Part shown: positions 17,184-42,324 of the stretch, piece after piece
Layout: each line of letters begins with the position of its first letter
Numbering within the stretch: position 1 is the first letter of the stretch
From: Martelella radicis
GTDB lineage: Bacteria > Pseudomonadota > Alphaproteobacteria > Rhizobiales > Rhizobiaceae
Direction of reading: 5' to 3'
Length of the DNA stretch: 64,000 bases
Assembly (NCBI RefSeq): GCF_014196625.1
Contig: NZ_JACIDZ010000014.1
Coordinates: 1 to 64,000, forward strand
Notes under the pieces: model-generated
Told to the model about the DNA's origin: nothing
Databases searched by the model: none
Seen by the model: only the letters and a program-made list of their open reading frames with translations
Made by a program: the position numbers and the translations under genes

Positions 17184-17193
17184 GAGAGTAAAA

Positions 17194-18033: not shown

Positions 18034-18059
18034 AGACCTGAAAGTCAGAGGAACTCGTC

Positions 18060-19145
18060 ATGGGATCTGTCGTTCTCAACCACGTCTACAAGTCTTTCGG
18101 CGCCGTCAATGTCATCAAGGACGTGTCGTTGAACATCGAAGACGGTGAATTCTGCGTCCTGGTCGGTCCGTCCGGCTGCGGCAAGTCGACCCTTCTGCGC
18201 ATCATCGCGGGTCTTGAGGAAACCACCGGCGGCAGCATCGATATTGCCGGCGCCGACGTCACCGATTTGGAGCCCAAGGAGCGCGACATCGCCATGGTGT
18301 TCCAGTCCTACGCGCTCTACCCGCAGATGACGGTGCGTGAAAACATGGGCTTCGCGCTGCATCTGGCGCGTCGGCCGAAGGAAGAAATCCGCTCCAAGGT
18401 CGATGACGTTGCCCGCATGCTGGGGCTCGAAGCCCTTCTCGACCGCCTGCCGAAGGAACTCTCCGGCGGCCAGCGCCAGCGCGTCGCCATGGGCCGGGCG
18501 ATCGTGCGCAACCCGCAGGTTTTCCTGTTCGATGAACCGCTGTCAAACCTCGACGCCAAGCTGCGCACCCAGGTGCGCGCCGAGATCCGCGACCTGCATG
18601 CCCGCCTGAAAACGACCTCTATCTATGTCACCCATGACCAGATCGAGGCGATGACGATGGGCCAGAAGATCGTGGTCCTGCGCGATGGCTGCGTGGAACA
18701 GGTCGGCACGCCGCTGGAACTCTACGACACGCCCGCCAACGCCTTTGTCGCAGGCTTCATCGGATCTCCGGCGATCAACCAGCTTTCCTGCACCATTGCC
18801 GAGAAGGACGGCGCCTACCACGCCCTGATGAATGACGGCAGTCTCCTGCCCTTGCCGCAGGGACTGGCGGTGAGCGAAGGACAACCGATCATCTACGCGA
18901 TCCGGCCCGAACATGTGCGCATCGTTTCGGCCGAAACGGAGCACAGCCTCAGTGCGGAAGTCACCTCGGTGGAGAACACCGGCTCCGACATGATGGTGTT
19001 CTGCAGGACGGCCGGCGGCCAGCTCACGGCCGCCTTCAAGGACAGGGTCGACATCGAAACCGGGGACCAGCTCTCGCTGCAGCCCTTCATCGACAGGGTC
19101 CATGTCTTCGATGCCGGAACCGGCGCCCGGATCGGCCTCAAATGA
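18060..19145 (+). CDS. Sugar ABC transporter ATPase (UgpC/MsmK-like)
   Basis: 361 residues. Walker A GPSGCGKST (36-44), Q-loop FQSYALYP, signature LSGGQRQR, Walker B VFLFDEPLSNLD, switch His in VTHDQIEAM, and a C-terminal TOBE-type regulatory domain (IYAIRPEHVRIV). AGAGGAAC ribosome site. It energises the importer of this operon. The stop overlaps the start of the PL17 lyase gene by 4 bases, tying import to depolymerisation. Confidence 0.94.
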   Translation: MGSVVLNHVYKSFGAVNVIKDVSLNIEDGEFCVLVGPSGCGKSTLLRIIAGLEETTGGSIDIAGADVTDLEPKERDIAMVFQSYALYPQMTVRENMGFALHLARRPKEEIRSKVDDVARMLGLEALLDRLPKELSGGQRQRVAMGRAIVRNPQVFLFDEPLSNLDAKLRTQVRAEIRDLHARLKTTSIYVTHDQIEAMTMGQKIVVLRDGCVEQVGTPLELYDTPANAFVAGFIGSPAINQLSCTIAEKDGAYHALMNDGSLLPLPQGLAVSEGQPIIYAIRPEHVRIVSAETEHSLSAEVTSVENTGSDMMVFCRTAGGQLTAAFKDRVDIETGDQLSLQPFIDRVHVFDAGTGARIGLK

Positions 19146-25491: not shown

Positions 25492-26307
25492 TCAGGCATC
25501 GCGATTCTCCCCGGCCATGTGATGACGGCCGACCGGCAGCATCATCGGCCGGCCGGAAACCGGATCGGGAATGATCCGGCTTTCGAGACCGAAGACATCG
25601 CGGACCAGCCCAGCTGTAAGAACCTTTTCCGGCGTGCCTGCCGTGTGGAGCGTACCACCCTGCATGGCGACCAGATAATCGGCATAACGGGCTGCAAGGT
25701 TCAGATCGTGCAGCACCATGACGATCGTGGTGGCGTTTATCCGGTTAAGGTCGGTCAGAAGATCGAGAACTTCGACCTGGTGGTTGATGTCCAGGAAGGT
25801 GGTCGGCTCATCGAGAAGCAGGATGTCAGTCCGTTGGGCGAGCACCATGGCGATCCACACGCGCTGACGCTGGCCGCCGGACAGCTCGTCGACGGGGCGA
25901 TCGGCAAGGTCTGCGGTGCCTGTGGTGTCCAGCGCTGCGGCAACGGCCTCGTCATCTGCCGCCGTCCAGCGTGAAAAAAGGCCGTGATGCGGATGACGGC
26001 CACGGCTGACGAGATCAGAAACCGTGACCCCCTCCGGCGCCAGCGGCGATTGCGGCAATAGCCCGAGCGTGCGGGCAAGCATCTTCGTCGGCATATTGTG
26101 GATCGCCTTGCCGTCGAGCAGCACCTCGCCCGCCTTCGGCGCCAGCAACCGCGACAGGGTGCGAAGAAGCGTCGACTTGCCGCAGGCATTCGCGCCGACA
26201 ATAGCCGTGATCCGTCCCGAAGGCACGGCAAAGCTCAAATCGTTCAGGACCACGCTATCGTCGTAGCCCGCCGAAATGCGGTCGGCCTTGAGAGTATGAA
26301 CGGTCAA
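25492..26307 (-). CDS. Iron-siderophore ABC transporter ATPase (FecE/FepC-like)
   Basis: 271 residues. Walker A GANACGKST, Q-loop LLPQSPLAPEG, signature LSGGQRQRV, Walker B ILLLDEPTTFLDI and switch VLHDLNLAARY are those of the FecE/BtuD group. Overlaps the upstream permease gene by 4 bases (ATGA). Supplies energy for the two FecCD-type permeases. Confidence 0.94.
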   Translation of the reverse strand: MTVHTLKADRISAGYDDSVVLNDLSFAVPSGRITAIVGANACGKSTLLRTLSRLLAPKAGEVLLDGKAIHNMPTKMLARTLGLLPQSPLAPEGVTVSDLVSRGRHPHHGLFSRWTAADDEAVAAALDTTGTADLADRPVDELSGGQRQRVWIAMVLAQRTDILLLDEPTTFLDINHQVEVLDLLTDLNRINATTIVMVLHDLNLAARYADYLVAMQGGTLHTAGTPEKVLTAGLVRDVFGLESRIIPDPVSGRPMMLPVGRHHMAGENRDA

Positions 26308-27332
26308 AGCGAACCTCCGGCCCTGTTGGCCCTGATGATGAGATAGATGAGATAGGGTGCGCCAAGCGCGCCGGTGACGACGCCGACGGGATAACGGCTC
26401 GGCAGCAGAAACTGGCCGGCATAGTCACCGGTCAGCACAAGGCTAGCTCCGATAAGCGCCGCCGGAATGAGGGGCGAGCCGTTGTTTCCGATGATGCGTA
26501 CGGCGATCGGTCCGGATAGGAAGGCGACAAAGGCAATCGGTCCGGTAACCGCGGTCGCCACCGCGATCAGACCGACGGCAGCGATGATGACGACGGCCCG
26601 CGTCCGCGCGACGCCGACCCCGAGGGCGGCTGCCGTATCATCGCCAAGCCGGAGTGCGTCAAGTTCGCGTGCCCGGCTCACCAGCACCCCGCCGAAGAAG
26701 ACGAGGCTGACGATAAGCGGCAAGACCTGGCTCGATGTCGCGCCATTGAGACTGCCCGTCAGCCAGCGCATTGCCTCCTGCAGGTCCCACATCGGCGCCA
26801 TGGAAAGAATATAGGCGACAATGCTTTCCAGCATGGCCGAGATGCCAATGCCAACCAGAATGAGACGCGTTCCGGCAACGCCGTTGCGCGCGGCAAGACC
26901 GTAAACCAGGATTGCGATGCCAAGGCCGGCAATGACGGCGACCACGGAAACGGCGGGACCGCTCCAGGACAGGACCACGATGGCGAAAACCGCCGCCGCG
27001 CTCGCGCCGGACGAGATGCCGATGATATCCGGGCTTGCCAGCGGATTGCGCAGCATAACCTGGAACGCAACGCCGCCAAGGCCGAAGCTGAGGCCCGACA
27101 GGATGGCCATACAGGCGCGTGGCAGCCGTAACTGACCGACGGTAAAGGAAGCGCCCGGCACATCCTCTCCCATCATCACGCGCAGCACGTCACCCGGCGG
27201 CGTGAGGGATTGCCCCAGCACCAGCGTCAGCGCGAACAGCCCGAAAAGCAACAGCAGGAAGCCGGCAAGGATCCGGTATCTTCGCCGCAGCCTGGCCTGC
27301 CGGATTATCGAAATGGCTGAAAGCGTGGTCAC
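26304..27332 (-). CDS. Iron-siderophore ABC permease (FecCD family), second subunit
   Basis: 342 residues with about ten membrane helices. FecCD landmarks: RLPRACMAILSGLSFGLGG, NPLASPDIIGISSGA, and a GPIAFVAFLSGPIAVRIIG block near the C-terminus. ATGA overlaps on both sides couple it to the other permease and the ATPase. Confidence 0.93.
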   Translation of the reverse strand: MTTLSAISIIRQARLRRRYRILAGFLLLLFGLFALTLVLGQSLTPPGDVLRVMMGEDVPGASFTVGQLRLPRACMAILSGLSFGLGGVAFQVMLRNPLASPDIIGISSGASAAAVFAIVVLSWSGPAVSVVAVIAGLGIAILVYGLAARNGVAGTRLILVGIGISAMLESIVAYILSMAPMWDLQEAMRWLTGSLNGATSSQVLPLIVSLVFFGGVLVSRARELDALRLGDDTAAALGVGVARTRAVVIIAAVGLIAVATAVTGPIAFVAFLSGPIAVRIIGNNGSPLIPAALIGASLVLTGDYAGQFLLPSRYPVGVVTGALGAPYLIYLIIRANRAGGSL

Positions 27333-28378
27333 AGTTCACGTACCTTCTGACGCCTGACGATCCAGATGAAGAAAGGCCCACCGACAAGCGCGGTGACGAT
27401 GCCGACATCGACCTCGCCGGGCCGCGCGACAATTCGCCCGAGAATGTCGCTCGCCAGAAGCAGTGCTGCGCCGACAAGCGCCGAGAAGGGCAGCAGCCAG
27501 CGATGATCGACGCCGACCAGAAGGCGGCAGACATGCGGGACAACGAGGCCGACGAAGCCGATCGGCCCGCAAACGGCCGTGATGGCGCCGCAAAGCAGCA
27601 CGGAGGAAAGAGCGGACAGGGCGCGGCCGAGGGAGACGTTCTCGCCAAGGCCCGCTGCAATCTCGTCGCCCAGCGCCATGGCGTTCAGCTTTCGGGCGGA
27701 GACGAGCGCCAGAACGAGGCCCGCTGCAAGAAACGGCAGCACCGGCAGTATCCGCTCGAATGTCGCGCCGCCGACGCCGCCGATCTGCCAGGAACGGATT
27801 CCGCCGGCGATATCGCCGCGCGGCAGCACGACGGCAATCACCAGCGAGGCAAAGGCGATTGACGTCGCAGCCCCCGCCAGCGTCAACTTCAGCGGGGTCG
27901 CCCCGCCGCGCCCGAGCGATCCGACGGCATAGACAAAGACGGCCGTGACGCCGGCCCCGAGGATCGCACTCCAGATATAGGCCTGGGACGAAGCAATACC
28001 GAACCATGCGACGCCGATGACCACAGCAAGCGAGGCCCCCATGTTGACGCCGAATATGCCTGGATCGGCGAGCGGGTTGCGGGTCATGCCCTGCATCAGC
28101 GCCCCGGAAAGGCCGAGCGCCGCGCCGGCGAGCAGGGCGAGCAGGGTGCGCGGGATGCGCATGGTCACCACGGCCTCGCCTATCGTATCCGCATGGCCGG
28201 CGAGCGCGCCGGCGACATCTGAAAGCGAAACCGACCTTGTGCCGATGGCAAGCGATGCCGCCAGCAGGACCGCCAGCACGGCAAGCATGGCAGCCAGCCA
28301 GAAAGCCCGGTTCTGCCGCAGCCGTTCACGCAGACGAGGCGCCAGTCGTTCGAATGAGATCAAGGTCTTCGCCGTCAT
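27329..28378 (-). CDS. Iron-siderophore ABC permease (FecCD family), first subunit
   Basis: 349 residues, about ten helices. Landmarks MRIPRTLLALLAGAALGLSG, NPLADPGIFGVNMGA and GPIGFVGLVVPHVCRLLVG, the last being the canonical ATPase-contact segment. Overlaps the binding-protein stop (ATGA) and the second permease start. Heterodimer with the next permease. Confidence 0.93.
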   Translation of the reverse strand: MTAKTLISFERLAPRLRERLRQNRAFWLAAMLAVLAVLLAASLAIGTRSVSLSDVAGALAGHADTIGEAVVTMRIPRTLLALLAGAALGLSGALMQGMTRNPLADPGIFGVNMGASLAVVIGVAWFGIASSQAYIWSAILGAGVTAVFVYAVGSLGRGGATPLKLTLAGAATSIAFASLVIAVVLPRGDIAGGIRSWQIGGVGGATFERILPVLPFLAAGLVLALVSARKLNAMALGDEIAAGLGENVSLGRALSALSSVLLCGAITAVCGPIGFVGLVVPHVCRLLVGVDHRWLLPFSALVGAALLLASDILGRIVARPGEVDVGIVTALVGGPFFIWIVRRQKVREL

Positions 28379-29373
28379 TCCGATTTTCGGGCAGCGGCTG
28401 CAAGCTCGGCCACATAGTCTTCAAGAACAAAGGAAATCGACAGCGGCGTCGGGTTGGCGGCCGTCCCGAGCGGATCGCGCCCGAGCAGAACCACCGCCCC
28501 GTTGCGAACGGCCGGCATGCGCCGGAAAAGCGGATTGAGTTTCATGGCCTCAAGCAGAAGACTGTTGCCATAGGTGACGATGATATCGACATCGTCGAAG
28601 GCATCGATCCGCTCGACGCTGATCGATCCGGAGAAACTGCCGCCGGTCGAAGCGGCCTTCACGCTTTCGGGCATCTGAAGGCCGAGATCCCTGAAGAACT
28701 GAACGCGGGTGTCGTGAGTGGTGTAGAAATTGACCACGCTCAGATCCGTGACATCGAGATGCGTTATGAACATCGCAGTCTTGCCTTCAAGCTCAGGATA
28801 TCTGCCGATTTCGGCATCGATCTCGTCCTCGATATCGGCAATCAGCGCCTCGCCGTCTTCCGGCATGCCAAGACCGGCAGCGTTGAAGCGGATCATGTCG
28901 CGCCAACCCGTTGACCAGGGAGCTTCGGGATAGGCGACGACGGGTGCAATCCGGCTCAACGTGTCGTAGTCGGATCGGGTGAGGCCGGAATAGGCCGCGA
29001 GAATGACATCGGGTCTGACTTCGGCCACCGCCTCGAAGTCGATCCCGTCACCTTCATCAAAGAGAACTGGAGCATCGGCGCCGAGTTCGTCCAGCCGCTC
29101 GGATACCCAGGGCAAAAACCCGTCACCGTTGTCATCACCGAAATTGGCGGCGGCAAAGCCGACAGGCACGATCCCGAGCGCCAGAGGGACCTCGTGATTG
29201 GCCCAGGCGACAGTGGCGACACGCTCTGGCTTCTCGGTAATGACGGTTTTGCCGAAGGCATGTTCGATCGTGATGGGTTGTTGAAGGCTCTCCCCGGCCC
29301 GCGCTGCCGGACCGGACGCGAGTACCGACAGGAAGGCAACGATGAGCAGGGACAAACCGGACAGGCGCGACAT
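28375..29373 (-). CDS. Iron-siderophore ABC transporter substrate-binding protein (FecB/FhuD type)
   Basis: 332 residues, cluster A binding protein with two lobes and a long linker helix. Signal peptide 1-26 ending PAARAG, no lipobox Cys. Landmarks: FGKTVITEKPERVATVAWAN, EAVAEVRPDVILAAYSGL and the DTLSRIAPVVAYPEAPW block that usually contacts the siderophore. ATG 29373 is 7 bases past AGAGG; a TTG two codons earlier overlaps the ribosome site. First gene of the leftward operon, divergent from the receptor gene. Confidence 0.92.
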   Translation of the reverse strand: MSRLSGLSLLIVAFLSVLASGPAARAGESLQQPITIEHAFGKTVITEKPERVATVAWANHEVPLALGIVPVGFAAANFGDDNGDGFLPWVSERLDELGADAPVLFDEGDGIDFEAVAEVRPDVILAAYSGLTRSDYDTLSRIAPVVAYPEAPWSTGWRDMIRFNAAGLGMPEDGEALIADIEDEIDAEIGRYPELEGKTAMFITHLDVTDLSVVNFYTTHDTRVQFFRDLGLQMPESVKAASTGGSFSGSISVERIDAFDDVDIIVTYGNSLLLEAMKLNPLFRRMPAVRNGAVVLLGRDPLGTAANPTPLSISFVLEDYVAELAAAARKSE

Positions 29374-29402
29374 CGGCAACCTCTTTGATTGACCGCTTAA
29401 AG

Positions 29403-29431
29403 TTGACTTTCTGTGTCATGTTCATATGACG
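29403..29431 (+). promoter_or_regulatory. Receptor promoter containing a candidate AraC-regulator site
   Basis: TTGACT (29403-29408), 16 bases and TATGAC (29425-29430) form a good sigma-70 promoter for the receptor gene. GTCAT/ATGAC arms (29415-29419, 29426-29430) make an inverted repeat over the -10 box. The segment shares 20 of 29 positions, including TTGACTTT-N5-TCAT, with 32819-32847 upstream of the AraC gene, suggesting a common regulator. The rest of this 255-base divergent gap shows no gene. Confidence 0.5.
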
Positions 29432-29628
29432 GGGTCAAGCACGGTGCCTGCAACGAGACTGAGGCCTCTGAATTTTCAGGGGAATCCTACAAAAAACAAG
29501 AAAATCTACAATACTGGACTAATTCATTCAAGTTAAAGAGCCACAGAACATGCCCTCATCGGCACGGTGCGCGCCACGGCCGCAAGGTGAAGGCAGCGCC
29601 CGTGAGACGTCAAATTCTGGAAGCCAAG

Positions 29629-31758
29629 ATGGATCATTCACACCGCAATAGTCACGGCCCGCGATCCCCGATCGGATTGAGGACCACGGTTCTTCTCGCC
29701 TGCACCGCCCTTGCGGCCAGCGCGCTGCCCGCACTGGCGCAGGAGGCTCTCGACACGTTGCCCGCCGATACCACGATGCTTGATCCGGTCAACATCGACC
29801 TTGTCGGCTACGGCGATGACGACGCCAATTCCATTGTCGCCTTCGGTTCCTCCGGCGGCGGTCGCTTGTCACAGGAAATCCTCGACACTCCGGCCTCGGT
29901 TTCCGTGATCACGGCAAAGGAAGTCCAGCAGCGCGATGCGCAGACGGTCGAGCAGGTGCTCGATTATACCGCCGGCGTGACAACGGACTTTTACGGTTCG
30001 GACGACCGTTTCGACTATTTCAAGATTCGCGGCTTCGATGCCTATACCTATCGTGACGGCCTGCCGCTCGGCTCGCCCTTCGGCGGTGTCCGGGAAGAGC
30101 CCTTCGCCTTCGAGCGGATCGAAGTGCTGAAGGGCGCCGACTCGACCGTTTACGGCGTCTCCGATCCCGGTGGCACCGTCAATTTCGTCTCCAAGACGCC
30201 GCGTCGGGAACGCTTCGGTGAGGCCTATATCTCCGGCGGCTCCTTCGACCACGCCGAAGTGGGCTTCGATTTCGGCGACAATATCACGGAAGACGACACC
30301 CTCTCTTATCGCCTGACGGGCAAGTTCCAGAACGCCGATGCGGAATATGACTATTCCAATGATGACGAGACATTCATCATGGGCGGCATCACCTGGCGGC
30401 CCTCCGATGCAACGACGATGACGCTGCTCTATGACTATCTCGACACCGACGGCACGCCGGGCGGCGGCGGGCATCCGATCGGATCGGATTTCGACCGCAG
30501 CTTCTTTCTCGGCGAACCGGACTACAACTACAATGACGTGACCCGCAACACCGTCACATGGATGTTCGACCATGACTTCGGTTCGGGCCTGACCTTCAGC
30601 TCGCGGGCACGCTATACCGATGCCGACAAAGGCTTTGGCTATGCCTATGTCTACGAGCCGGTCGACAACGGCGACACGATCGCCGACCGCTACTATTTCG
30701 GCAATGCCAGCTCCTATGACGACTTCGTCATCGACGCGCATCTCGAGTACGACACATCGTTCAGCACCGTCGACAGCCGCACGCTGGCGGGCGTCCAGTA
30801 CAATGACTATTCGGGCACGAACAACGCCTATTACGCGCCGGCGCCCGGCATCGACTGGACCAATCCGATCTATTCCGGCGGTCCGGACTATGCCGGTCCC
30901 TATGCCAGCACGAACAGCAAACAGAAGACCACTTCGCTCTACCTCCAGCAGGAACTGACCTTGGCCGACAAGCTGATCGGAACCATCGGACTGCGCAACG
31001 ACTGGCTGGATCTCGAAGAGCGCAACAACCTGACCGGCATCACCACGGCCGGCGACTACAGCGAATTTACCGGGCGCGCCGGACTGATCTACAAGGTGAC
31101 CGACGAGGTCTCGACCTATGCAAGCTATGCCCAGTCCGTCGCGCCGCCGACGCTTGGCACTGAGCCGGAACGCGGCGAGCAGTTCGAGCTCGGCGCGAAA
31201 TACGCGCCGCTTGCCTTCCCGGCGATGTTCAGCGCATCGATCTACGATCTCACCAAGGACAATATCACCGTCACCAATCCGGCAACCAACCTGCAGGAGA
31301 CGATCGGAAAGTCCCGCGTGCGCGGTATCGATCTGGAGGCCAAGGCGGAACTGTTGAACAATCTGAGCTTCACCGCCGCCTATTCCTACATGATGTCGGA
31401 TATCGTCGAGAATGGCGCCGGCGGCAATGTCGGCAACCAGCTTGCCTTCGTGCCCAACAACGTCGCCTCGCTCTGGGTCGACTATACGCTTGAAGGCGAA
31501 GGCAGGCGCGGCGACATGACCTTCGGTCTCGGGGCGCGCTACCAGAGCTCCTACTATTTTGCCGAGGACAACGCGATCAAGTCCGATCCGAACATCACTT
31601 TCGATGCGGCCTTCACCTATCAGGTGGCCGAGAACACCACCTTCCAGGTCAACGCCACCAATCTGTTCGACGAGAAATATGTGGCCTATGGCGGCTACGG
31701 CGCCGACTGGTACAATCAGGGACGTGCCGTCTATGTGACGCTGCGCCAGGCCTGGTAG
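29629..31758 (+). CDS. TonB-dependent siderophore receptor
   Basis: 709 residues, outer membrane. Signal peptide 1-37 (ALA-Q). Plug domain with QEILDTPASVSVITAKEV, QTVEQVLDYTAGV, FKIRGFD and the ERIEVLKGADSTVYG...PGGTVNFVSK block characteristic of FhuA/ferrichrome-type siderophore receptors; then a 22-strand barrel with VSTYASYAQSVAPP and the LFDEKYVAYGGYGADWYNQGR terminal region. The last residue is Trp instead of the common Phe. It delivers ferric siderophore to the FecB-type protein encoded divergently. ATG 29629 is preferred, as the upstream in-frame extension to 29413 lacks signal-peptide character. Confidence 0.92.
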   Translation: MDHSHRNSHGPRSPIGLRTTVLLACTALAASALPALAQEALDTLPADTTMLDPVNIDLVGYGDDDANSIVAFGSSGGGRLSQEILDTPASVSVITAKEVQQRDAQTVEQVLDYTAGVTTDFYGSDDRFDYFKIRGFDAYTYRDGLPLGSPFGGVREEPFAFERIEVLKGADSTVYGVSDPGGTVNFVSKTPRRERFGEAYISGGSFDHAEVGFDFGDNITEDDTLSYRLTGKFQNADAEYDYSNDDETFIMGGITWRPSDATTMTLLYDYLDTDGTPGGGGHPIGSDFDRSFFLGEPDYNYNDVTRNTVTWMFDHDFGSGLTFSSRARYTDADKGFGYAYVYEPVDNGDTIADRYYFGNASSYDDFVIDAHLEYDTSFSTVDSRTLAGVQYNDYSGTNNAYYAPAPGIDWTNPIYSGGPDYAGPYASTNSKQKTTSLYLQQELTLADKLIGTIGLRNDWLDLEERNNLTGITTAGDYSEFTGRAGLIYKVTDEVSTYASYAQSVAPPTLGTEPERGEQFELGAKYAPLAFPAMFSASIYDLTKDNITVTNPATNLQETIGKSRVRGIDLEAKAELLNNLSFTAAYSYMMSDIVENGAGGNVGNQLAFVPNNVASLWVDYTLEGEGRRGDMTFGLGARYQSSYYFAEDNAIKSDPNITFDAAFTYQVAENTTFQVNATNLFDEKYVAYGGYGADWYNQGRAVYVTLRQAW

Positions 31759-32921: not shown

Positions 32922-34016
<1,095 letters not shown>

Positions 34017-34136
34017 GTTTGCTCCTGGCATTCGGGTCATCAAAAGCGCCCGGCCTGACGGCAGCGCGCTCGATAAATTCGGTTGGCGTGATGTCTCGGA
34101 TCTTCTGTCCGGCACGATCGGCCGGCGCGCGAAAGG

Positions 34137-34171: not shown

Positions 34172-35461
34172 TTATTCCTGGGCGGCAACCTCCGCATTGA
34201 TGACGTCCATGTCCTTCTTGAGCGTGTCGAAGGTCTGCTCGACTGACAGTTCGCCGACGATCATCTGGGAAAGACGCTGGACAACGGCGGTGAAGAACGC
34301 CGTATTGCCCTTGGCAACATTGAGCTGATAGGCCTGCGGGGTTGGGGTGTCGCGGTTCGCGTTGAAGACCTTCATCGCGTTCTGAACGTTCGGATCGTCG
34401 GTCTTGTAGTCGAGCCCTTCGATATCTGCGCCGGGAACAAGAATAAACTCCTCGGCAAGCGCGCGCTGGATGTCCTCGCTGCCGATATATTCCATGAACG
34501 CGGCCGCCGCTTCCGGGTACCGGGTATGTTCGAAGGCGATTACCGAACTTCCCCCCGGCATGGCGACGCAGCCGCCGGGACCGCAAGGAGCCTGAATGGC
34601 GGTCCATTCGAAGGCATCACCGATCATGCCGGCGAGCGCTCCGACCATCCAGTTGCCCGACAGATAGGTCACGGCATTGGCGTTGGCGAATTCCTCGCCC
34701 ATGGATTTGTAGGCCGAACCGCCGGCCGCGCCCCACATTTCGGGCGGGAACGCGCCCGTTAGCGTGTAGCCGTAGAGCTCTTCAATGACGGAGCGCGCCG
34801 CCTCGTCCGGGAAGGTGTAGACCCCGTCCTCGGAAATGATATCGGCGCCTGCCGACAGAAGCGGCCCGGTGATGCGGTGCCCGGAGCGATCGAGCGTGAA
34901 GGGGATCGCGACGCCGGTTGCCTCGGCCACTTCGACGGAGGCCGCAACGATTTCGTCCAGCGTTGCGCCCGGTTCCGGAATATCGACGCCTGCCTGCTCG
35001 AACAGGGTGACGTTGACGAAGGGCAGGTTCAGGGTTTGCGTCCATGTGATGCCGTTGATCGCATCCGAACCGGGTTCTTCGTACTGGCGCAACGGACTGA
35101 GGCTTGCGCCGTAGAGCGCCTCGAAACCCTCCGGATCCTTCAGCAGCGGCCGCAGATCAAGCGCGTAACGGCCAAGGGTGCGGTCGGTCACTCGGGCGAT
35201 ATCCGGCCCCTCGCCGACAGCAAGCTGAAGCGGCAACTGGCGAAGAATGGTGTTGTAGCCCGTGCTGATGAATTCGACGTCGATGTCGTCATGCGCCTCG
35301 TTGAAGGCTGCAACGATCTCCTCCATCCGAACCAGGTTCTCCGGATCATCGTCAGAATAAAGAAATGTCAGGTTGGCGGGCTCCTGCCCTGATGCCGACG
35401 TTGCGAGCAAAGCGCCGAATGCAATCATCCCGGCAAGCGTGAAATTCAGACGGATTGGCAT
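34172..35461 (-). CDS. Sugar ABC transporter substrate-binding protein
   Basis: 429 residues, SBP_bac_1 family. Signal peptide 1-25 (SASG-Q). LTFLYSDDDPENLVRMEEIVAAF, the GEGPDIARVTD segment and NWMVGALAG are typical of extracellular sugar-binding proteins. Perfect GAGGAGG ribosome site before ATG 35461. It is transcribed away from its permease and ATPase genes, an uncommon split for an ABC importer, so both arms must share the divergent promoter region at 35462-35611. Probably brings in the product of, or substrate for, the 821-residue protein. Confidence 0.9.
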   Translation of the reverse strand: MPIRLNFTLAGMIAFGALLATSASGQEPANLTFLYSDDDPENLVRMEEIVAAFNEAHDDIDVEFISTGYNTILRQLPLQLAVGEGPDIARVTDRTLGRYALDLRPLLKDPEGFEALYGASLSPLRQYEEPGSDAINGITWTQTLNLPFVNVTLFEQAGVDIPEPGATLDEIVAASVEVAEATGVAIPFTLDRSGHRITGPLLSAGADIISEDGVYTFPDEAARSVIEELYGYTLTGAFPPEMWGAAGGSAYKSMGEEFANANAVTYLSGNWMVGALAGMIGDAFEWTAIQAPCGPGGCVAMPGGSSVIAFEHTRYPEAAAAFMEYIGSEDIQRALAEEFILVPGADIEGLDYKTDDPNVQNAMKVFNANRDTPTPQAYQLNVAKGNTAFFTAVVQRLSQMIVGELSVEQTFDTLKKDMDVINAEVAAQE

Positions 35462-35611
35462 ACAAGTCCTCCTCTTGTTTAAACCATGCAAAATTTTAAT
35501 GATTTTTGTTCAATCATCGCATTTTCTGCTTACATGCTCGACATTAGCAATAATTTATGCAATTGAGAAGAGGGAGTTACTCATGCAATTTTTTCATGAA
35601 AAGGTAAAAGC
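35462..35611. promoter_or_regulatory. Divergent control region with three ATGCAA repeats
   Basis: This AT-rich 150-base region must drive both arms of the sugar system. ATGCAA occurs three times in the same orientation (35486, 35557, 35583), each followed by an A/T-rich tract (AATTTT, TTG, TTTTTT). TTTTTTCATGAAAA near the third copy is nearly palindromic. No CG-centred LacI operator like those at 14.5-14.8 kb is apparent, so the site for the LacI protein encoded at 41248 is undecided; the ATGCAA repeats are candidates. Confidence 0.35.
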
Positions 35612-35618
35612 ATGGTGA
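35583..35618 (+). CDS. Possible leader peptide MQFFHEKVKAW
   Basis: An 11-codon frame (MQFFHEKVKAW) with a near-ideal ribosome site, AGGGAG at 35571-35576, 6 bases before the ATG. Its TGA (35616-35618) lies just past the ATG (35612) of the 821-residue protein in another frame, so ribosomes ending here could restart on the large gene. It may be a coupling leader or a fortuitous frame; no attenuator hairpin was found. Confidence 0.35.
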   Translation: MQFFHEKVKAW

Positions 35619-38077
35619 GGAGACGATTCGAGCAGACACTCAAGACGGGTGATGCGCTGACATTGTGGGAGCTAGGCCCGATCATCGAGGCGGCATTTCC
35701 GGGCTATCCGGCTCCGGCCGGCGGGGAAATCGATTACGCGTTTCGCAATGGCACGCATCCCGCCCCCCCGCTGCCATGCCGCGTCGCCTTTGTGGCGGAA
35801 ATGAAAGGCCGGGCGTTACCGCCGCCAACGTTCTGGACACGCGACGGCTTCTACGCGCCCGAAGGCAACCCCAAGATTGAATTCAGCGAATTCGGCTACA
35901 CGCCGACGCATAAGCGCCGCTGGCTGCGCAATACGCTCAGCGTGGAAAAGACAGGCGACTATCGCTTCTCGGTTTCGACATGCGGCGGCGTGCGTCTGAG
36001 GGTCGACGACACGGAGGTCGTATTCGAGCCATACCAGCTCAACGGTTTCCAGGCGACAGAGATCACACTGCCGCTGAAGGCCGGCGAAAACGACATCCTC
36101 ATGCATATGGAGGAGCTGTTCGAGCGCGATACCAAATGGATTGTCGAGATCCACTATCTCGGCGAGGAAGAGATCGTTGCTGGCGTCGCGGCGGACGCCG
36201 AGCCGGAGAAGATAGCCGAAGTCAGCGCCCTTGCCGCCGAGGTCCGACCGGCGCGGGATTTCTTTGGCCGCGAACCCTTCATTCTGGTCTTCGACCGTCC
36301 CGCGAGCTTTGACGTCCCCGTCTCGGCCCGGATGATCTCCCACCAGCATGATCGCGCGGTGTTGCTCGATGTCGATGCCGTCCTGCGCGCCGGGGAACAT
36401 GAACTCGACCTCGGTCCGGCCGACAAGCTGCGCGAGGGCTTTCACCGCCTCGAACTCACGTTCGGCGCCGGGGATGTTGCGGTCGCCCGCTCAATCGATG
36501 CCGCCTTTCTGCGCGAAACAGAGCTCCGGCAAGCCGCCGAAACGGAAACCGAGCGCAAACGCGAGGCGCTTTTCCATGCGGCACGGCACGGCGCGCCACG
36601 GGTCGGCCGAGTTCTCTCGATGTTCGCGACCGACGAAATCGATCCGGTCGCCGTCGAAACGATCCTGCGCGATGCGCTGACAACGATCGAGGAGCGGCAT
36701 GACTGCTCCGATTTTTCCATGGTGCCGCTGCTCTGGGTGTGGGGGCATTACCGCGACAAGCTGACTGATGCGATGCGCGCGCGCGTCCGTCGCGCCATTC
36801 TCGAGTGGCGTTACTGGATCGACGAGCCCGGCAATGACGTGATGTGGTTCTGGAGCGAAAATCATGTGCTCTGCTTCCATGTCTCGCAGTATATAGCCGG
36901 CGCGCTGTTCCCCGACGCTATCTTTTCTTGCTCGGGGCGAACGGGCCGTGAGCAGCAGAAGACCGCCGAGGACCGCCTTCATCGCTGGTTCTCATCGATC
37001 GAGAAGCACGGTCTTGGCGAATGGAATTCCTCAGCCTACTACCCGATCGATTTTATCGGCATCTTCGGCCTTTACGGCTGGTGCGACGAGGCGCTGAAAA
37101 CCCGTTGCAAAGCGCTGCTTGACCGTATTTTCCTGATGACCGGGCTGCATACGCTGAAAGGGATTGCCGCCGGTTCACAGGGCCGCGCCTATGACAAGGA
37201 ACTCAAGGCTGGACCGCAGACCGAGCTCAGCCCGTTCTGCCAGGTGGCCTTTGGCGAGGGCTGGCTCAACAGCGGCGTCGCCGCCCTTCCGCTCTATTGC
37301 CTGAGCGATTACGAAGCGCCCGAAATGGCCCGAAAGGCAGCGCTCTGGTCAAAGCCGGACGGCATCATCGCGCATTACACACAAGGCCACGAGCATAGCG
37401 GCAAGCTCGCGCTCTACAAGAACGACAGGGCCATGCTTTCGAGCGTTGTCGAACATTCGCCGGGCAGAAAGGGTTTTCAGGAACACGTGGTCGATGTGCG
37501 GCTTTCCGGCCATCCGATGGCCAGGCTCTGGGTCAATCATCCGGGCGAACTCGATCCGTGGGGAACCAAGAGACCGTCATTCTGGTCCGGCAACGGTATT
37601 CTTCCTCAGGTCGGGCAGTATGGCGACACCGCCATGCTGATCTACGATCTCGGCGAAAACCCCGACGTGGACTTCGTGCATGCCTTTGCCGAACGCGACG
37701 GGTTGGACGCAGTCGAGACCGACGGGCATTGGCTCTTTGCCCGCGCCGGCGACGGCTATGTCGCGATATGGGCATCCGAGGAGATCGAGGCGGTCCGGAA
37801 AGGCGCCACCGCCGGACGCGAATTCAGGGCCGCTAGCCTTCGCTCCGGCTGGATGGTGCGCGTTGGCGGCGGCGATGGCAGGACAGGCTTCAAGAGCTTC
37901 ATGGCAGAGAACAAGGGAGCGCCACCGCAATTTGACGCGGATCGACGCGTTCTCGAAGTGACCCGCAGCGAGGGGCCAGAACTCGCTCTTGGCTGGAGCG
38001 AAGGCCTTTCCGTCGACGGCAGGCCAACCCCGTTCACAGCCCTGACCGTCATCCCGCAGATCAACTGGGGAGCGTGA
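35612..38077 (+). CDS. Unrecognised 821-residue toroid-type protein, candidate carbohydrate-active enzyme
   Basis: I do not recognise a named family. No signal peptide. Residues about 90-187 look like a PA14/beta-sandwich ligand domain (TGDYRFSVSTCGGVRLRVDD...LPLKAGENDILMHME). About 300-600 is helical and toroid-like: DVMWFWSENHVLCFH (409-423), GEWNSSAYYPIDF (470-482) and AAGSQGRAYDKE (518-529) supply conserved-looking His, Glu, Tyr, Arg candidates. The C-terminal part is beta-rich (RPSFWSGNGILPQVGQY near 653). This is the arrangement of heparinase/PL8-like lyases and some glycosidases. Next to a sugar ABC importer, a dehydrogenase and LacI, it is probably a cytoplasmic enzyme acting on an imported oligosaccharide. 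ATG 35612 has AAGG 8 bases upstream. Confidence 0.75.
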   Translation: MVRRRFEQTLKTGDALTLWELGPIIEAAFPGYPAPAGGEIDYAFRNGTHPAPPLPCRVAFVAEMKGRALPPPTFWTRDGFYAPEGNPKIEFSEFGYTPTHKRRWLRNTLSVEKTGDYRFSVSTCGGVRLRVDDTEVVFEPYQLNGFQATEITLPLKAGENDILMHMEELFERDTKWIVEIHYLGEEEIVAGVAADAEPEKIAEVSALAAEVRPARDFFGREPFILVFDRPASFDVPVSARMISHQHDRAVLLDVDAVLRAGEHELDLGPADKLREGFHRLELTFGAGDVAVARSIDAAFLRETELRQAAETETERKREALFHAARHGAPRVGRVLSMFATDEIDPVAVETILRDALTTIEERHDCSDFSMVPLLWVWGHYRDKLTDAMRARVRRAILEWRYWIDEPGNDVMWFWSENHVLCFHVSQYIAGALFPDAIFSCSGRTGREQQKTAEDRLHRWFSSIEKHGLGEWNSSAYYPIDFIGIFGLYGWCDEALKTRCKALLDRIFLMTGLHTLKGIAAGSQGRAYDKELKAGPQTELSPFCQVAFGEGWLNSGVAALPLYCLSDYEAPEMARKAALWSKPDGIIAHYTQGHEHSGKLALYKNDRAMLSSVVEHSPGRKGFQEHVVDVRLSGHPMARLWVNHPGELDPWGTKRPSFWSGNGILPQVGQYGDTAMLIYDLGENPDVDFVHAFAERDGLDAVETDGHWLFARAGDGYVAIWASEEIEAVRKGATAGREFRAASLRSGWMVRVGGGDGRTGFKSFMAENKGAPPQFDADRRVLEVTRSEGPELALGWSEGLSVDGRPTPFTALTVIPQINWGA

Positions 38078-38080
38078 AGC

Positions 38081-39193
38081 ATGGCCAGTCTTTCGATCGA
38101 AAACGTCACCAAGAACTTCGGCGCCGTCAAGGTCATCAAGGGTGTCGACCTTGAGGTCGAGGACGGCGAATTCGTCGTTCTCGTCGGCCCATCCGGTTGC
38201 GGAAAATCGACCCTGCTGCGCGTGATCGCCGGGCTTGAGGATGTCACCGGAGGCGACATCGCCGTCGGCGGGAAGCAGGTCACACGCCTCACCCCGGCCC
38301 AGCGGGAAATCGCGATGGTGTTCCAGTCCTATGCGCTCTATCCGCATATGAGCGTGCGCAAGAACCTGTCCTTCGGCCTTGAAAATCTCCGCATGAAGAA
38401 GTCGGAAATCGATGAACGGGTATCTCGCGCCGCCGGCATGCTTGGCCTCGATCCGTTCCTGGATCGGCGACCGAAGGCCCTTTCCGGCGGGCAGCGCCAG
38501 CGCGTTGCCATCGGGCGGGCGATCGTGCGCGAACCGACATTATTCCTGTTCGACGAGCCGCTTTCCAACCTCGATGCCAAATTGCGCGTGCAGACGCGCG
38601 GCGAAATCATCAATCTGCACCGCAAGCTCAAGTCAACGATGATCTATGTGACGCATGACCAGATCGAGGCCATGACCATGGCCGACCGCATCGTGGTCAT
38701 GCATGACGGCATCATGGAGCAGGTCGGCACACCGCTTGAACTTTTCGACGCGCCGGTCAACCTGTTCGTCGCTGGCTTCATCGGATCGCCCCGGATGAAC
38801 TTCTTCCCCGGAACGGTGCGCGGCATAAACGGCGAAAACATCACCGTCACGCTCGACCACCTCGGCTCCATCGTCCTGCCTTTCGCCACGGGCAGCGTTA
38901 CCGACGGGGAGCGTCTGGTTATCGGCGTCCGCCCCTCGCATACGAAAGTCAATGAAGGGCCATACGCGGTCGAGGTGCAGTATCAGGAAAGCCTCGGCAC
39001 AGAGACCTTCATTTACGGCAAGCTTGAAGGCGTGGAAGAACTGGTCACCCTGCATGTGCAGGATCACTTCCAATCCGAACCCGGTCAGCAACTGGCCTTC
39101 GACCTTCCGGTTGAGCGCGTGCATGTCTTCCGCGAGTCCGACGAGAAACGCGTGCCGACACGCACCGAGGCAGGCCAGGGAGGCGGCCGATGA
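38081..39193 (+). CDS. Sugar ABC transporter ATPase (UgpC-like)
   Basis: 370 residues. Walker A GPSGCGKST (36-44), FQSYALYPH Q-loop, LSGGQRQRVA signature, LFLFDEPLSNLD Walker B, VTHDQIEAMTM switch and a C-terminal TOBE-like domain (VIGVRPSHTKV). Starts 3 bases after the 821-residue protein gene and overlaps the permease gene by 4 bases. It is close in sequence to the ATPase at 18060-19145, and the two might substitute for each other. Confidence 0.94.
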   Translation: MASLSIENVTKNFGAVKVIKGVDLEVEDGEFVVLVGPSGCGKSTLLRVIAGLEDVTGGDIAVGGKQVTRLTPAQREIAMVFQSYALYPHMSVRKNLSFGLENLRMKKSEIDERVSRAAGMLGLDPFLDRRPKALSGGQRQRVAIGRAIVREPTLFLFDEPLSNLDAKLRVQTRGEIINLHRKLKSTMIYVTHDQIEAMTMADRIVVMHDGIMEQVGTPLELFDAPVNLFVAGFIGSPRMNFFPGTVRGINGENITVTLDHLGSIVLPFATGSVTDGERLVIGVRPSHTKVNEGPYAVEVQYQESLGTETFIYGKLEGVEELVTLHVQDHFQSEPGQQLAFDLPVERVHVFRESDEKRVPTRTEAGQGGGR

Positions 39194-40176
39194 CCAATCT
39201 CAGAGCGCTTCCCGGCATGACCTTTTCCTGGCTGGTCCGGCTGCTTGAAGTTCCCTTCGATCTGATTGAGCGGCTGATCGGCGGACGGCGCATGCCGTGG
39301 GCGTTCCTGGCGCCCAACATGGTCATCTTCGGCATATTCAGCTTTCTGCCGATCGCGCTACTGATCGGCTACGCCTTTACCGGCGGCTCGGACGTCCTGC
39401 TCGGGGACCGGCCTTTCGTCGGCCTGGAGAACTTTGCGAGGCTGTTCGACTGCGAGAATTACCTTTCGCCTTATACCTGCCGCGAGTCCTTTTTCTGGAT
39501 CGCGGTCAGGAATACCCTTTGGTATGTGACGATCAAGGTCACGGCAATGCTTGCCATTTCGCTGATGACGGCGATCATCCTCAACCGGATATGGTTCGGA
39601 AGAGGCTTTTTCCGCGCCGTGTTCTTCTATCCGGTTCTGCTCTCTCCCGTTGTCGTGGGACTGGTCTGGCAGTGGTTCCTCAACACCAACGGCCTTTTGA
39701 ACGCCTTTCTGGTGGAGCTCGGTTTCGAGCGCGTGATCTTCATGCTCGATATTTTCTGGTCGCGCTTCTTCGTGATCTTCGTGTCGATCTGGTTCCAGAT
39801 GGGCTTTTACACGCTCATCCTGCTTGCCGGACTGCAGGCAATCCCAAGCGACATCTATGAGGCGGCCGCCATTGACGGCACCCCGCGCTGGCGGGTCTTC
39901 ACCCGGATCACCCTGCCAATGCTGGCGCCCAATCTTGTCGTGGTCCTCGTGCTCCTGATGATCAGGGCGGTGCAGGTCTTCGATGAGGCCTATGTCCTGA
40001 CGAATGGCGGCGGGCCGGGCACCGCCAACACCTTCCTCGTCCAGTTCATCTACGAAACCGCCTTTGCCAGCGACCTGAAACTCTACGGCCTGGCATCCGC
40101 CGCATCGGTGGTCATGGGGTTCGTGCTTTTGATCCTGACGCTCGTGCAGCTCCAACTGGCTCGTAAAGCGGAGTAA
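39190..40176 (+). CDS. Sugar ABC transporter permease (MalF-like)
   Basis: 328 residues, six helices after an N-terminal cytoplasmic segment. Large periplasmic loop with LFDCENYLSPYTCRESF (two Cys that could form a disulfide). Coupling loop DIYEAAAIDGTPRWRVFTRI. ATGA overlap with the ATPase stop. Works with the next permease and the divergently encoded binding protein. Confidence 0.92.
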   Translation: MTNLRALPGMTFSWLVRLLEVPFDLIERLIGGRRMPWAFLAPNMVIFGIFSFLPIALLIGYAFTGGSDVLLGDRPFVGLENFARLFDCENYLSPYTCRESFFWIAVRNTLWYVTIKVTAMLAISLMTAIILNRIWFGRGFFRAVFFYPVLLSPVVVGLVWQWFLNTNGLLNAFLVELGFERVIFMLDIFWSRFFVIFVSIWFQMGFYTLILLAGLQAIPSDIYEAAAIDGTPRWRVFTRITLPMLAPNLVVVLVLLMIRAVQVFDEAYVLTNGGGPGTANTFLVQFIYETAFASDLKLYGLASAASVVMGFVLLILTLVQLQLARKAE

Positions 40177-40182
40177 AGATTC

Positions 40183-41229
40183 ATGCCTGTAAAAAGCTTT
40201 CTCGCACAGACCCGCGGCAAGAACGGACCGGATATCGCCGACTGGCTTTCCTGGTTCTGGCTGGTATTCGGGACGCTGCTGATTGCCATACCCGTCGCCT
40301 GGGCCGCGATCTCCTCGCTCAAACAACCCGCAGAGATCACCCGTTTTCCGCCGAGTTTCGTGCCCACGGCGCCGGCACAGGTGGAAGTTGCCGGTTACGA
40401 CAGGCCTCTGGGTCTGTGGGAGGTGAACATCGACGGCAACACGGAGGAGATGGCGCTCGTGCGGCGGATCGGCATCCAGGCCAGCATGGTCGACCCTGAA
40501 AATCCGGAGGAGACCGTCAACGTGCCGACGAGCGACATTCGCCCGTTGCTGGAACTGTCCATAGCGGCGAGCAACTACACAGAGCCGCTCGAACGCTTCA
40601 ACTTCCTGACCTATTTCAAGAATTCCGTGTTCGTCACCACGGTGGCAACCCTGCTTACCTTGCTGCTGAATGCAATGGCGGCATTTGCGCTCTCGAAATA
40701 TCGCTTCCGCGGACGCAATGCGGTATTCGTGCTGATCATCTCGACCTTGATGATTCCGCTTTCCGTGGTCATGGTCCCCGCATTCCTGGTGGTTGTAGGC
40801 CTCAACCTCATGGACAACCTCTGGGGCGTCATTCTTCCGACCATCGCAACCCCGACCGGCGTGTTCCTGTTGCGCCAGTACATGCTGACCATCCCCGATG
40901 AACTGATCGAGGCCGGCCGCATCGACGCTGCGAGCGAATTCCGCATCTTCTGGCGGATCGTTCTGCCGCTGACGGCGCCAGCGCTTGCGGTATTGGCGAT
41001 TTTCTCGGTGATCTGGCGCTGGAACGATTTTCTCTGGCCGCTGATCGTTCTGATCCGTCCGGAAAATTTCACGCTCCAGGTCGGCCTCAACGCCTTCAAG
41101 GGCCAATATCAGGTCCAGTGGCACTATATTCTGGCGATGACGATGCTGAGCCTTGCGCCGGTCACAATCATCTTTGTATTTCTTCAGCGCTACATTACCG
41201 CTGGCATCGCCAATACCGGCATCAAGTAG
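40183..41229 (+). CDS. Sugar ABC transporter permease (MalG-like)
   Basis: 348 residues, longer than the usual 280 because of a periplasmic insertion of about 90 residues after the first helix (PPSFVPTAPAQVEVAGYDR to about NYTEPLERFN). Coupling loop ELIEAGRIDAASEFRIFWRI and VLPLTAPAL. Such extended loops occur in permeases for alpha-glucoside or acidic sugars. GGAG ribosome site, 6 bases after the previous stop. Confidence 0.92.
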   Translation: MPVKSFLAQTRGKNGPDIADWLSWFWLVFGTLLIAIPVAWAAISSLKQPAEITRFPPSFVPTAPAQVEVAGYDRPLGLWEVNIDGNTEEMALVRRIGIQASMVDPENPEETVNVPTSDIRPLLELSIAASNYTEPLERFNFLTYFKNSVFVTTVATLLTLLLNAMAAFALSKYRFRGRNAVFVLIISTLMIPLSVVMVPAFLVVVGLNLMDNLWGVILPTIATPTGVFLLRQYMLTIPDELIEAGRIDAASEFRIFWRIVLPLTAPALAVLAIFSVIWRWNDFLWPLIVLIRPENFTLQVGLNAFKGQYQVQWHYILAMTMLSLAPVTIIFVFLQRYITAGIANTGIK

Positions 41230-41247: not shown

Positions 41248-42324
41248 TTGGCGAAGACGACAAAAGGTCCGGGATCGAAGCCCCGGGTCGGCCTCAAGGA
41301 CATCGCCCAAAGCGCCAATGTCTCGATCAGCACGGTCTCACACGTCATCAACCGGACCGCGCCAATCTCCGAGGATGTGCGCGAACGGGTCATGCAGGCG
41401 GCACGTGAAACCGGCTATCTCGGCCTGCGCAGGGAGCGGGAAGCGCGCGGCGGCATCCGAAAGGTGCTGCTCGCCTCTTCGGCCTACGGCCTTGCCGAAA
41501 ATGACAACAACCTGTTCCTGTGGAGCATCTTGTCCGCGCTTCGGGCACGATGTGAACAGATCGGCGTCAAGCTTCTCCCTCACTCGCCGCCGGGCGATCA
41601 TCTGAGCGCCGAGGGCATCATTCGTGCTGCCAATGACGAACGCGCCGACGGCGTTCTGCTCATTCACGACGATCGGCGCGAATTGCTGGCGCTGCTCAGC
41701 GAACGCCGGGAGGAATTGCCGCCGGTCGTCCTGATCAACGGCGAGGATCCCGACATGGGCATCGATACGGTCTCGCCCCAGAACCGTTTCGCCGCGTTCA
41801 AGGCCACACGATGGCTGACGGAGATCGGTCACCGCAACATCCTGCATGTTACCTGGCACGGCAGAACGACGATCTCGCGGCGGCGAGACGGATTTCTTGA
41901 CGGCATGGCAGAGATCGGGGTCAGGCCCGAGAATGCGCCGATCTTCGCCTTTTCCGGTCCAGACGCCTGGCGCGCCCAACCCTTCCTATCGGACAAGCTG
42001 ATCGAACAGGTTCGGTCCGAGAACATCACCGCGATCTTCTGCGGGGCCGACGATGTCGCGCTCCGGGTCCACAGATCCCTTCACAAGGCCGGATACAAAG
42101 TGCCGGAAGACATATCGCTCATGGGGTTCGACAATATCGTCCATGCGGAAATGAGTTCGCCTCCGCTCGCCTCTGTCGCCGTTCCGGTCGGCCATATCGG
42201 TCCTGTCGCCCTGAAACTGCTCGAGGAGCGTCTGAGCGAGTCCTTCGGACCATCCGCGCCCGCACGACGGGTTGAACTCGCCTGCACGCTGATAAAACGC
42301 GCAAGCGTGGCGCCGTTGCGATAG
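41248..42324 (+). CDS. LacI-family regulator of the second sugar system
   Basis: 358 residues. HTH VGLKDIAQSANVSISTVSHV (14-33) followed by the hinge and a periplasmic-binding-type effector domain ending in LMGFDNIVHAEMSSPPLASV, the standard LacI/GalR C-terminal pattern. The start is TTG at 41248 with AGGAG about 11 bases upstream; there is no ATG before the HTH. Cotranscribed with the importer, so likely an autoregulated repressor of both arms. Confidence 0.9.
   Translation: MAKTTKGPGSKPRVGLKDIAQSANVSISTVSHVINRTAPISEDVRERVMQAARETGYLGLRREREARGGIRKVLLASSAYGLAENDNNLFLWSILSALRARCEQIGVKLLPHSPPGDHLSAEGIIRAANDERADGVLLIHDDRRELLALLSERREELPPVVLINGEDPDMGIDTVSPQNRFAAFKATRWLTEIGHRNILHVTWHGRTTISRRRDGFLDGMAEIGVRPENAPIFAFSGPDAWRAQPFLSDKLIEQVRSENITAIFCGADDVALRVHRSLHKAGYKVPEDISLMGFDNIVHAEMSSPPLASVAVPVGHIGPVALKLLEERLSESFGPSAPARRVELACTLIKRASVAPLR

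Follow-up and report, generated by a model that had tools for sequence, protein, structure and literature searches.

What is the product of the gene that heads a sugar-importer operon in Martelella radicis, and what does it act on? The question arises in a 64,000-nucleotide stretch of DNA, hereafter the window (positions 1 to 64,000 of contig NZ_JACIDZ010000014.1, assembly GCF_014196625.1), in which an open reading frame (ORF) with an ATG start at 35612–38077 on the + strand encodes 821 residues. Because its predicted fold, its conserved residues and its gene context agree, this protein is very likely a cytoplasmic lyase acting on oligouronides. Judged against Pfam, NCBIfam and solved structures, it probably represents a new sequence family within a known kind of enzyme. 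The fold prediction, the conservation and the gene context are computed; from them we infer the reaction, the residue roles and the substrate.

Sequence searches, predicted fold and conserved residues

Single-protein searches of Pfam, NCBIfam and the sequences of solved structures returned no usable relative. No Pfam or NCBIfam family reached its own cut-off for the window protein: PA14 was matched in the N-terminal sandwich with E 0.0013 (19 bits, cut-off 24), DUF2793 more weakly still, and the one NCBIfam match had E 0.25. Relatives are encoded in 221 stretches of genome contigs (tblastn, E ≤ 1e-3), the best 80 of which were kept for locus work. Two alignments represent them: A1, composed of the window protein and 39 of these 80 loci (40 rows; effective number of sequences, Neff, 2.4, a low diversity), and A4, 35 rows picked to cover both branches of the family. 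Pfam matches among the relatives, like the NCBIfam matches of the A4 members, are weak and scattered, with PA14 in 9 of the 40 members of A1 (best E 3e-5, a match by which one member may reach the cut-off) and 12 of the 35 of A4, the galactose-binding domain of beta-galactosidase weakly matched in 8 and 3, respectively, and other families in at most two members. PF07940 (Hepar_II_III) appeared at E ≤ 1 neither for the query nor for any of the 40 A1 or 35 A4 members, a negative limited by the HMMER filters, which drop most weak matches. PF07470 (GH88/GH105), the family of a neighbouring protein described below, likewise did not appear at E ≤ 1 for the window protein; at the same threshold, Pfam listed two families for the query and 19 for A4, with neither GH127 nor any glycoside hydrolase (GH) catalytic profile among them. 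The A1 and A4 profiles, compared with solved chains, found no lyase at E ≤ 10.

The whole-protein AlphaFold model, built from the 40 rows, has a mean predicted local distance difference test (pLDDT) score of 85.0 and a predicted template modelling (pTM) score of 0.87. It is made up of two β-sandwiches, a helical (α/α) toroid (residues 304–577; 36521–37342) and an antiparallel β-sheet domain (residues 585–821; 37364–38074). The first sandwich (residues 11–186; 35642–36169) resembles the N-terminal sandwich of GH2 enzymes, and the second, Ig-like sandwich (residues 198–298; 36203–36505), delineated by DSSP on the model, matched a single row, the chaperone CupB2 (3q48, Z 8.6 over 83 residues). 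Foldseek with the whole protein placed exoHep, of polysaccharide lyase family 15 (PL15), first (E 1.6e-10), followed by many GH2-type enzymes, which as we read it arise through the N-terminal sandwich; in the VIA structural search, GAGase VII and PL17 lyases lead, aligned over about residues 309–803, and GH2-type rows appear at ranks 20 to 43 (Z 8.7–9.1) with 119–132 residues aligned in that sandwich.

Modelled alone, residues 304–821 have a pLDDT of 85.5. All 16 best Foldseek rows of this model are polysaccharide lyases with a toroid and an antiparallel β-sheet (E 8.3e-8 to 2.7e-4), comprising members of PL35, PL15, PL17, PL21 and PL39, a xanthan lyase, which we take to be PL8, and one alginate lyase of no stated family; the next row is a GH81 enzyme (E 6.4e-4). 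VIA rows 1–42 consist of 41 lyase chains (Z 8.4–10.8) and one epimerase of the same fold, dermatan sulfate epimerase, headed by GAGase VII (Z 10.8, root-mean-square deviation (rmsd) 5.4, 391 residues aligned) and Alg17c (Z 10.7, rmsd 5.2, 417 aligned). The predicted model thus has the two-domain fold of the toroid and antiparallel β-sheet lyase superfamily, and this membership is well supported. PL33, PL26 and other families are missing from the fold listings, where absence does not exclude them. The original prediction, made without database searches, had proposed an N-terminal sandwich, a toroid-like middle and a β-rich end marked by three motifs, WFWSENH (residues 412–418), NSSAYYPIDF (472–481) and RPSFWSGNGILPQ (654–666), and had likened the protein to a polysaccharide lyase or glycosidase of no nameable family. 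Model and translation agree with that layout, the fold search selects the toroid lyases, and neither a curated family at its cut-off nor an unambiguous profile match with any characterised family emerged.

Asn417 and His418 of the SENH stretch (36860–36865) and Tyr476 of NSSAYYP (37037–37039) are invariant in all 40 rows of A1 and all 35 of A4. Tyr476 lies 59 residues past Asn417 and 58 past His418, within the published range: in the available parts of a table of toroid lyases (PMC12088678) and of a PL33 paper (PMC11848413), Tyr follows Asn, or its substitute, by 53–63 residues in 13 entries, the spacing for PL15 3A0O and for PL21 being counted from the catalytic His and not from the listed neutraliser. 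In the same entries a His lies 130–166 residues past Tyr in 10 of the 13 and 7–9 before it in three from PL8 and PL23. By comparison, Asn417–His418 are predicted to provide the carboxylate neutraliser and the base, and Tyr476 the catalytic acid. Two further residues are candidates for a third active-site position. Gln623 (37478–37480), whose role is presumed, is invariant (40 of 40 and 35 of 35 rows), and its stretch may be the counterpart of the HGHAD motif found in heparinase-type lyases. His643 (37538–37540), directly after a strand of the C-terminal domain (638–642) and 167 residues past Tyr476, is conserved in 35 of the 40 A1 rows (three have Asn, two Gln) and in all 35 of A4.

Among characterised lyases, the PL35 glycosaminoglycan (GAG) lyases GAGase II (8KHV) and GAGase VII (8KHW) have the same two domains and give the best domain-level match; their Asn/Tyr spacing, in the available part of the PMC12088678 table, is 54 against 59 here. 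They act on GAGs and show no detectable sequence similarity to the window protein (similarity to PL35, PL33, PL39 and PL40 was judged on solved chains), which has the extra N-terminal sandwiches and in which Mn ligands and an HGHAD-like motif are unrecognisable. The PL15 exo-lyases (exoHep, 6LJA; Atu3025, 3A0O), which include the best whole-chain Foldseek match, exoHep, act on alginate or heparin, and the window protein has no Hepar_II_III profile match; the entry for exoHep shows an Asn–His pair followed by Tyr (N336/H337, Y390), as in the window protein. PL17 Alg17c, an alginate lyase of the same fold at 8% identity, has Asn201 and Tyr258 57 residues apart, residue 202 being His according to the title of an H202L mutant entry. 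PL8 enzymes (hyaluronate, chondroitin AC and xanthan lyases) also share the fold (Z up to 9.7), with the same spacing of 59 in 1RWA as listed in PMC12088678, but their catalytic His lies 7–9 residues before Tyr, and the nearest His of the window protein, His466, is not kept across the family.

Distribution and gene neighbourhoods of the family

Relatives occur in 14 of 61 genomes in the relatives search and in 9 of 398 in a sample of the phylum, the window's own genome being included in both. The family is present in many Rhizobiales, in Roseobacteraceae, and in a Photobacterium and a Subdoligranulum record; no relatives were found in the phage records searched. It perhaps extends to a haloarchaeon: a protein on a Haladaptatus plasmid (L110:9791–11776) shares 29% identity with roughly half of the Pseudosulfitobacter relative. 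Its gene is surrounded by Gfo/Idh/MocA genes, and the stretch also contains a heparinase II/III gene. Annotated records that were examined name the family only ‘hypothetical protein’ or ‘hypothetical conserved protein’, and in a literature search by title and opening of abstract, whose coverage mostly excludes subscription papers, no paper was recognised as being on it.

The neighbourhood survey comprised 123 loci, namely the window, the 80 from genome contigs, 34 further genome stretches and 8 plasmid regions, in which ORFs were simply read from stop to stop and assigned labels from BLAST comparison with 26 reference proteins. The Haladaptatus locus fell under the threshold and was dropped, leaving 122; some loci duplicate one genome (for example, L019/L132 and L021/L134), so counts of identity clusters are fairer. 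In 112 of the 122 loci (43 of the 49 clusters formed at 80% identity, 21 of the 26 at 65%) a GH88/GH105 protein is encoded within 9 kb; by a gap rule, its gene immediately follows the lyase-candidate gene in 85 loci and immediately precedes it in one. As background, the window's 5.0-Mb genome has six matches that pass the GH88 cut-off, or about 0.02 per 18 kb. The nearest solved chain of these Pfam-GH88 neighbours is the GH105 enzyme 3qwt in all three tested. The cut-off of NF051900 (‘beta-galactosidase BglB’) is exceeded by 13 of 14 GH88-family proteins, a count that includes one (L153) whose stretch has no recognised copy of the lyase candidate; the exception is a fused ORF (L154). GH28 genes are present in 71 loci (17 of 49 clusters at 80%), KduI in 29 (16 of 49) and KduD in 23 (13 of 49).

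Three types of importer accompany the family: CUT1-type ATP-binding cassette (ABC) systems, two-ATPase ABC systems with an SBP_bac_5 binding protein, and tripartite ATP-independent periplasmic (TRAP) transporters. The annotated loci of R. sophoriradicis and R. etli contain a binding protein, the lyase-candidate gene, GH88, GH28 and ABC genes, those of Pseudosulfitobacter and Salipiger contain GH88, KduI, KduD and TRAP genes, and that of Pannonibacter contains GH88, KduI, the lyase-candidate gene and ABC genes. In L120 (11340–14489) a GH38 α-mannosidase gene follows the lyase-candidate gene, where most other loci have GH105. In the window's genus, the L113 operon includes a gene with a Glucosamine_iso domain and a ROK-family protein with sub-threshold sugar-kinase profiles; L114 also holds a Glucosamine_iso domain, and the ORFs of L115 match in size and order (L115 being judged by ORF sizes only).

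The location of the protein was assessed by a simple hydropathy check, not a signal-peptide predictor. Within the first 60 residues of the window protein, no signal-peptide-like stretch was found, the best 12-residue mean hydropathy being 1.09 as against 2.25 in the adjacent solute-binding protein; since the leader is on the latter and none is on the former, the binding protein is taken to be exported and the enzyme to be intracellular. The same check found no hydrophobic leader in four relatives with annotated starts (L093, L095, L096 and L108), in the GH105 and GH28 proteins of L093 or in the GH88-family protein of L095. The original prediction of a protein with no signal peptide acting on imported oligosaccharides is consistent with these results, the context being one of uptake and breakdown of unsaturated uronides, and homologues consistently found away from carbohydrate genes did not turn up. 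Its proposal of an undescribed pathway goes too far for the family, in which the pathway is mostly of known type (GH105, KduI, KduD and GH28).

Proposed reaction and alternative explanations

In the proposed mechanism, the adjacent ABC importer would bring in short oligosaccharides containing uronic acid, and the substrate would be held between the toroid and the C-terminal sheet. Asn417, with His418, would hold the carboxylate of the +1 uronate; the C5 proton would be removed, most likely by His418 with His643 or Gln623 assisting, and Tyr476 would protonate the leaving oxygen. The β-elimination would create a new non-reducing end bearing a 4,5-unsaturated uronate, which in most of the relatives examined would be removed by the neighbouring GH105, with KduI and KduD leading on to 2-keto-3-deoxygluconate. 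Context and fold together suggest that the family supplies the substrate of that GH105. Elimination from D-galacturonate is anti, as is that from L-iduronate, and for this reason His418 would by analogy be the base and Tyr476 the acid. Such roles are described in the available part of the PL33 paper, in which His311 (PL15) and His202 (PL21) are the base and Tyr is the acid when the +1 uronate is L-iduronate (PMC11848413). The predicted activity lends itself to a sharp and cheap test by absorbance at 232 nm.

Several results weigh against an oligouronide lyase. The Foldseek TM-scores are low (0.30–0.43) and the rmsd values large (10.6–14.5 Å) over whole chains, and a VIA Z of about 10 at 8% identity is just moderately over the noise level. 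In the whole-protein model, pLDDT falls below 50 in the conserved loops 409–414, 471–475, 522–526 and 652–659; because confidence is lowest in these and a few other parts, the active-site geometry cannot be checked and does not share the support given to the fold. The residues are equated with those of known lyases by order and spacing, not by superposition. The position of His643 is occupied by Asn or Gln in five of the 40 rows of A1 (L055, L059, L068, L069 and L073), His466, 10 residues before Tyr476, is conserved in 38 of the 40 A1 rows but in only 18 of the 35 in A4, and the window protein has no recognisable HGHAD-like motif. Profile–profile comparison (hhalign) with 30 Hepar_II_III proteins from the order gave E values of 0.35–0.56, which amounts to nothing, and no reported activity was found for any family member. 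In the survey, GH28 is present in only 4 of 26 clusters at 65% identity, and 10 of the 122 loci carry no GH88/GH105 label within 9 kb: the window, L001, L043 (at a contig end), L050, L079, L114, L115, L120, L135 and L136.

Two other kinds of enzyme would account for much of the fold evidence. A uronyl C5-epimerase would combine the same fold with the same Asn/His/Tyr chemistry, returning the proton to C5 and keeping the glycosidic bond, and one of the best matches in the fold search was human dermatan sulfate epimerase 1 (Z 10.4, rmsd 5.7, 441 residues aligned). Such an enzyme yields no unsaturated sugar, yet a GH88/GH105-type hydrolase is found in 112 of 122 loci, KduI in 29 and KduD in 23, which makes an epimerase very unlikely. 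An (α/α)-barrel glycoside hydrolase, for example one that is exo-acting on uronides, would cleave by hydrolysis and not by elimination. The GH81 row, SpGH92 (Foldseek E 0.019) and chitobiose phosphorylase (VIA Z 8.3 over 237 residues) are in keeping with it, all below the lyases; these alignments cover about half the length (209–237 residues, ending near residue 267 of the 518-residue model), whereas the lyases match toroid and β-sheet together and rank first. With no glycoside hydrolase catalytic profile among the listed families, this explanation too is improbable.

The other alternatives retain a lyase and concern its substrate or pathway. A mainly non-pectic substrate, such as glucuronate glycans (GAG-like or capsular material, or arabinogalactan side chains), is a serious contender, if a doubtful one. 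The Glucosamine_iso-domain genes of L113 and L114 (and L115, by ORF sizes) and the ROK protein of L113 hint at an amino sugar, an α-mannosidase gene follows in L120, the fold relatives in the available part of the PMC12088678 table act on GAGs or alginate, and the loci with GH28 belong mostly to one branch; on the other side stand the presence of GH28 in 71 of 122 loci and a neighbouring hydrolase nearest to GH105 chains. A change of pathway confined to the window and Devosia pacifica copies, with a Gfo/Idh/MocA dehydrogenase replacing the GH105 step, appears rather unlikely. The two copies (62% identical) have no GH105 within 9 kb and are the only two of 122 loci with a Gfo/Idh/MocA gene, the tree groups them with 100/100 support beside L113/L115 of the window's genus, and the solved relatives of the dehydrogenase include glucuronide-3-dehydrogenase (8tdi, E 1.4e-17). 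However, the solved chains include sugar dehydrogenases of other kinds that match at least as closely, the enzyme could equally act on a released monosaccharide, and GH105-type genes are present elsewhere in the genome.

For the oligouronide lyase itself, a pectic substrate (galacturonan or rhamnogalacturonan I) is likely in the Rhizobium/Agrobacterium branch, a point on which we are less sure. The GH28 proteins encoded next to the lyase candidate in two Agrobacterium loci (L052 and L065) score over the cut-off of ‘polygalacturonase PglB’ (NF051861), the neighbours there belonging to the PglB and BglB families of NCBI, and the Agrobacterium relative would be the unnamed gene beside pglB and bglB. 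Atu4560 and Atu4561 (bglB) are reportedly, according to an abstract, among seven genes that matter for plant infection. If the relative adjoins them, the main role of BglB is more likely to be removal of the unsaturated uronate made by the lyase. Taken together, this would place a toroid fold in cytoplasmic pectin catabolism, with anti-elimination on D-galacturonate, an unrecognised first enzyme of the pglB/bglB operon and BglB as an unsaturated-uronyl hydrolase, a combination that we advance tentatively as possible. The lyase would supply a missing step in how root and tumour bacteria degrade plant cell-wall fragments inside the cell, and it would suggest a new reading of the BglB family. The job proposed here is that of the oligogalacturonide lyase (OGL) of Dickeya, a PL22 enzyme whose fold is a β-propeller as opposed to the predicted toroid; PL26 exo-rhamnogalacturonan lyase possibly does it on rhamnogalacturonan I. 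OGL cleaves ABC-imported pectin oligomers in the cytoplasm, according to the available part of PMC12838403. The fold searches, PMC12088678 and PMC11848413 show the toroid fold in lyases of GAGs, alginate, xanthan and ulvan. For Rhizobiales, PMC3870299 predicts a LacI-regulated cluster named ‘rhi’ that handles rhamnogalacturonides. A link to picA of Agrobacterium was considered and discarded; a review, in the part available, ties picA to pglA (Atu3129) and not to pglB (PMC6683767).

The operon of the window and its genome

The lyase-candidate gene heads a tight + strand operon with intergenic gaps of −4 to 18 bp, composed of a UgpC/MalK-type ABC importer ATPase (38081–39193; NF008653, 476 bits, cut-off 432), two permeases (39190–40176 and 40183–41229; both PF00528) and a LacI-family regulator (41248–42324; PF00356 and PF13377). 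Divergent from it, on the − strand, are the solute-binding protein with its hydrophobic leader (34172–35461; PF13416 and PF01547) and the Gfo/Idh/MocA oxidoreductase (32922–34040; PF01408 and PF22725), an arrangement that the original prediction had described and the coordinates bear out. As the start of the binding protein we use the in-frame ATG at 35461, the ORF as listed (34172–35491) opening with TTG at 35491; the start of the oxidoreductase is likewise assigned by us, its listed ORF extending to 34607. The best solved chains for the oxidoreductase are 3q2i and 3q2k, at E ~1e-33 over residues 11–350 of 371. Between the divergent operons lies a perfect 12-bp palindrome, TTTTCATGAAAA (35591–35602). 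It was considered as a LacI operator and rejected: its core, TTCATGAA, is absent from L001, L113 and L115 and, in L114, is present only far from the gene.

Within the family this operon is an exception, having the dehydrogenase and no GH105. Because the window and Devosia pacifica copies sit inside the GH105-bearing family in the tree (in which the midpoint root serves display alone and L111 has a long branch), the absence looks secondary. The operon would have lost its local GH105 and would presumably depend on copies elsewhere in the genome, supply in trans being the simplest account. The genome has a second copy of the family, with GH105 (L112), and its matches over cut-off comprise six to the GH88 family (two short and weak), three to the KduI/IolB family and two to GH28.

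Two further loci of the same genome carry GH88-family genes. In L153, a BglB-type GH105 gene (9613–10728) is near an ABC importer and an α-L-rhamnosidase gene (16603–19272, with Bac_rhamnosid domains), which is likely a rhamnogalacturonan system with no recognised copy of the lyase candidate nearby. In L154 (9201–11861; G000:C2:74210–76249), an 887-residue frame fuses a GH28 domain, over the PglA cut-off, to a GH88-family domain and adjoins a CUT1-type ABC importer. Elsewhere in the window, 26304–31758 encodes two FecCD-like permeases, a periplasmic binding protein and a TonB-dependent receptor, as read from the translations, and is likely an iron-siderophore uptake cluster.

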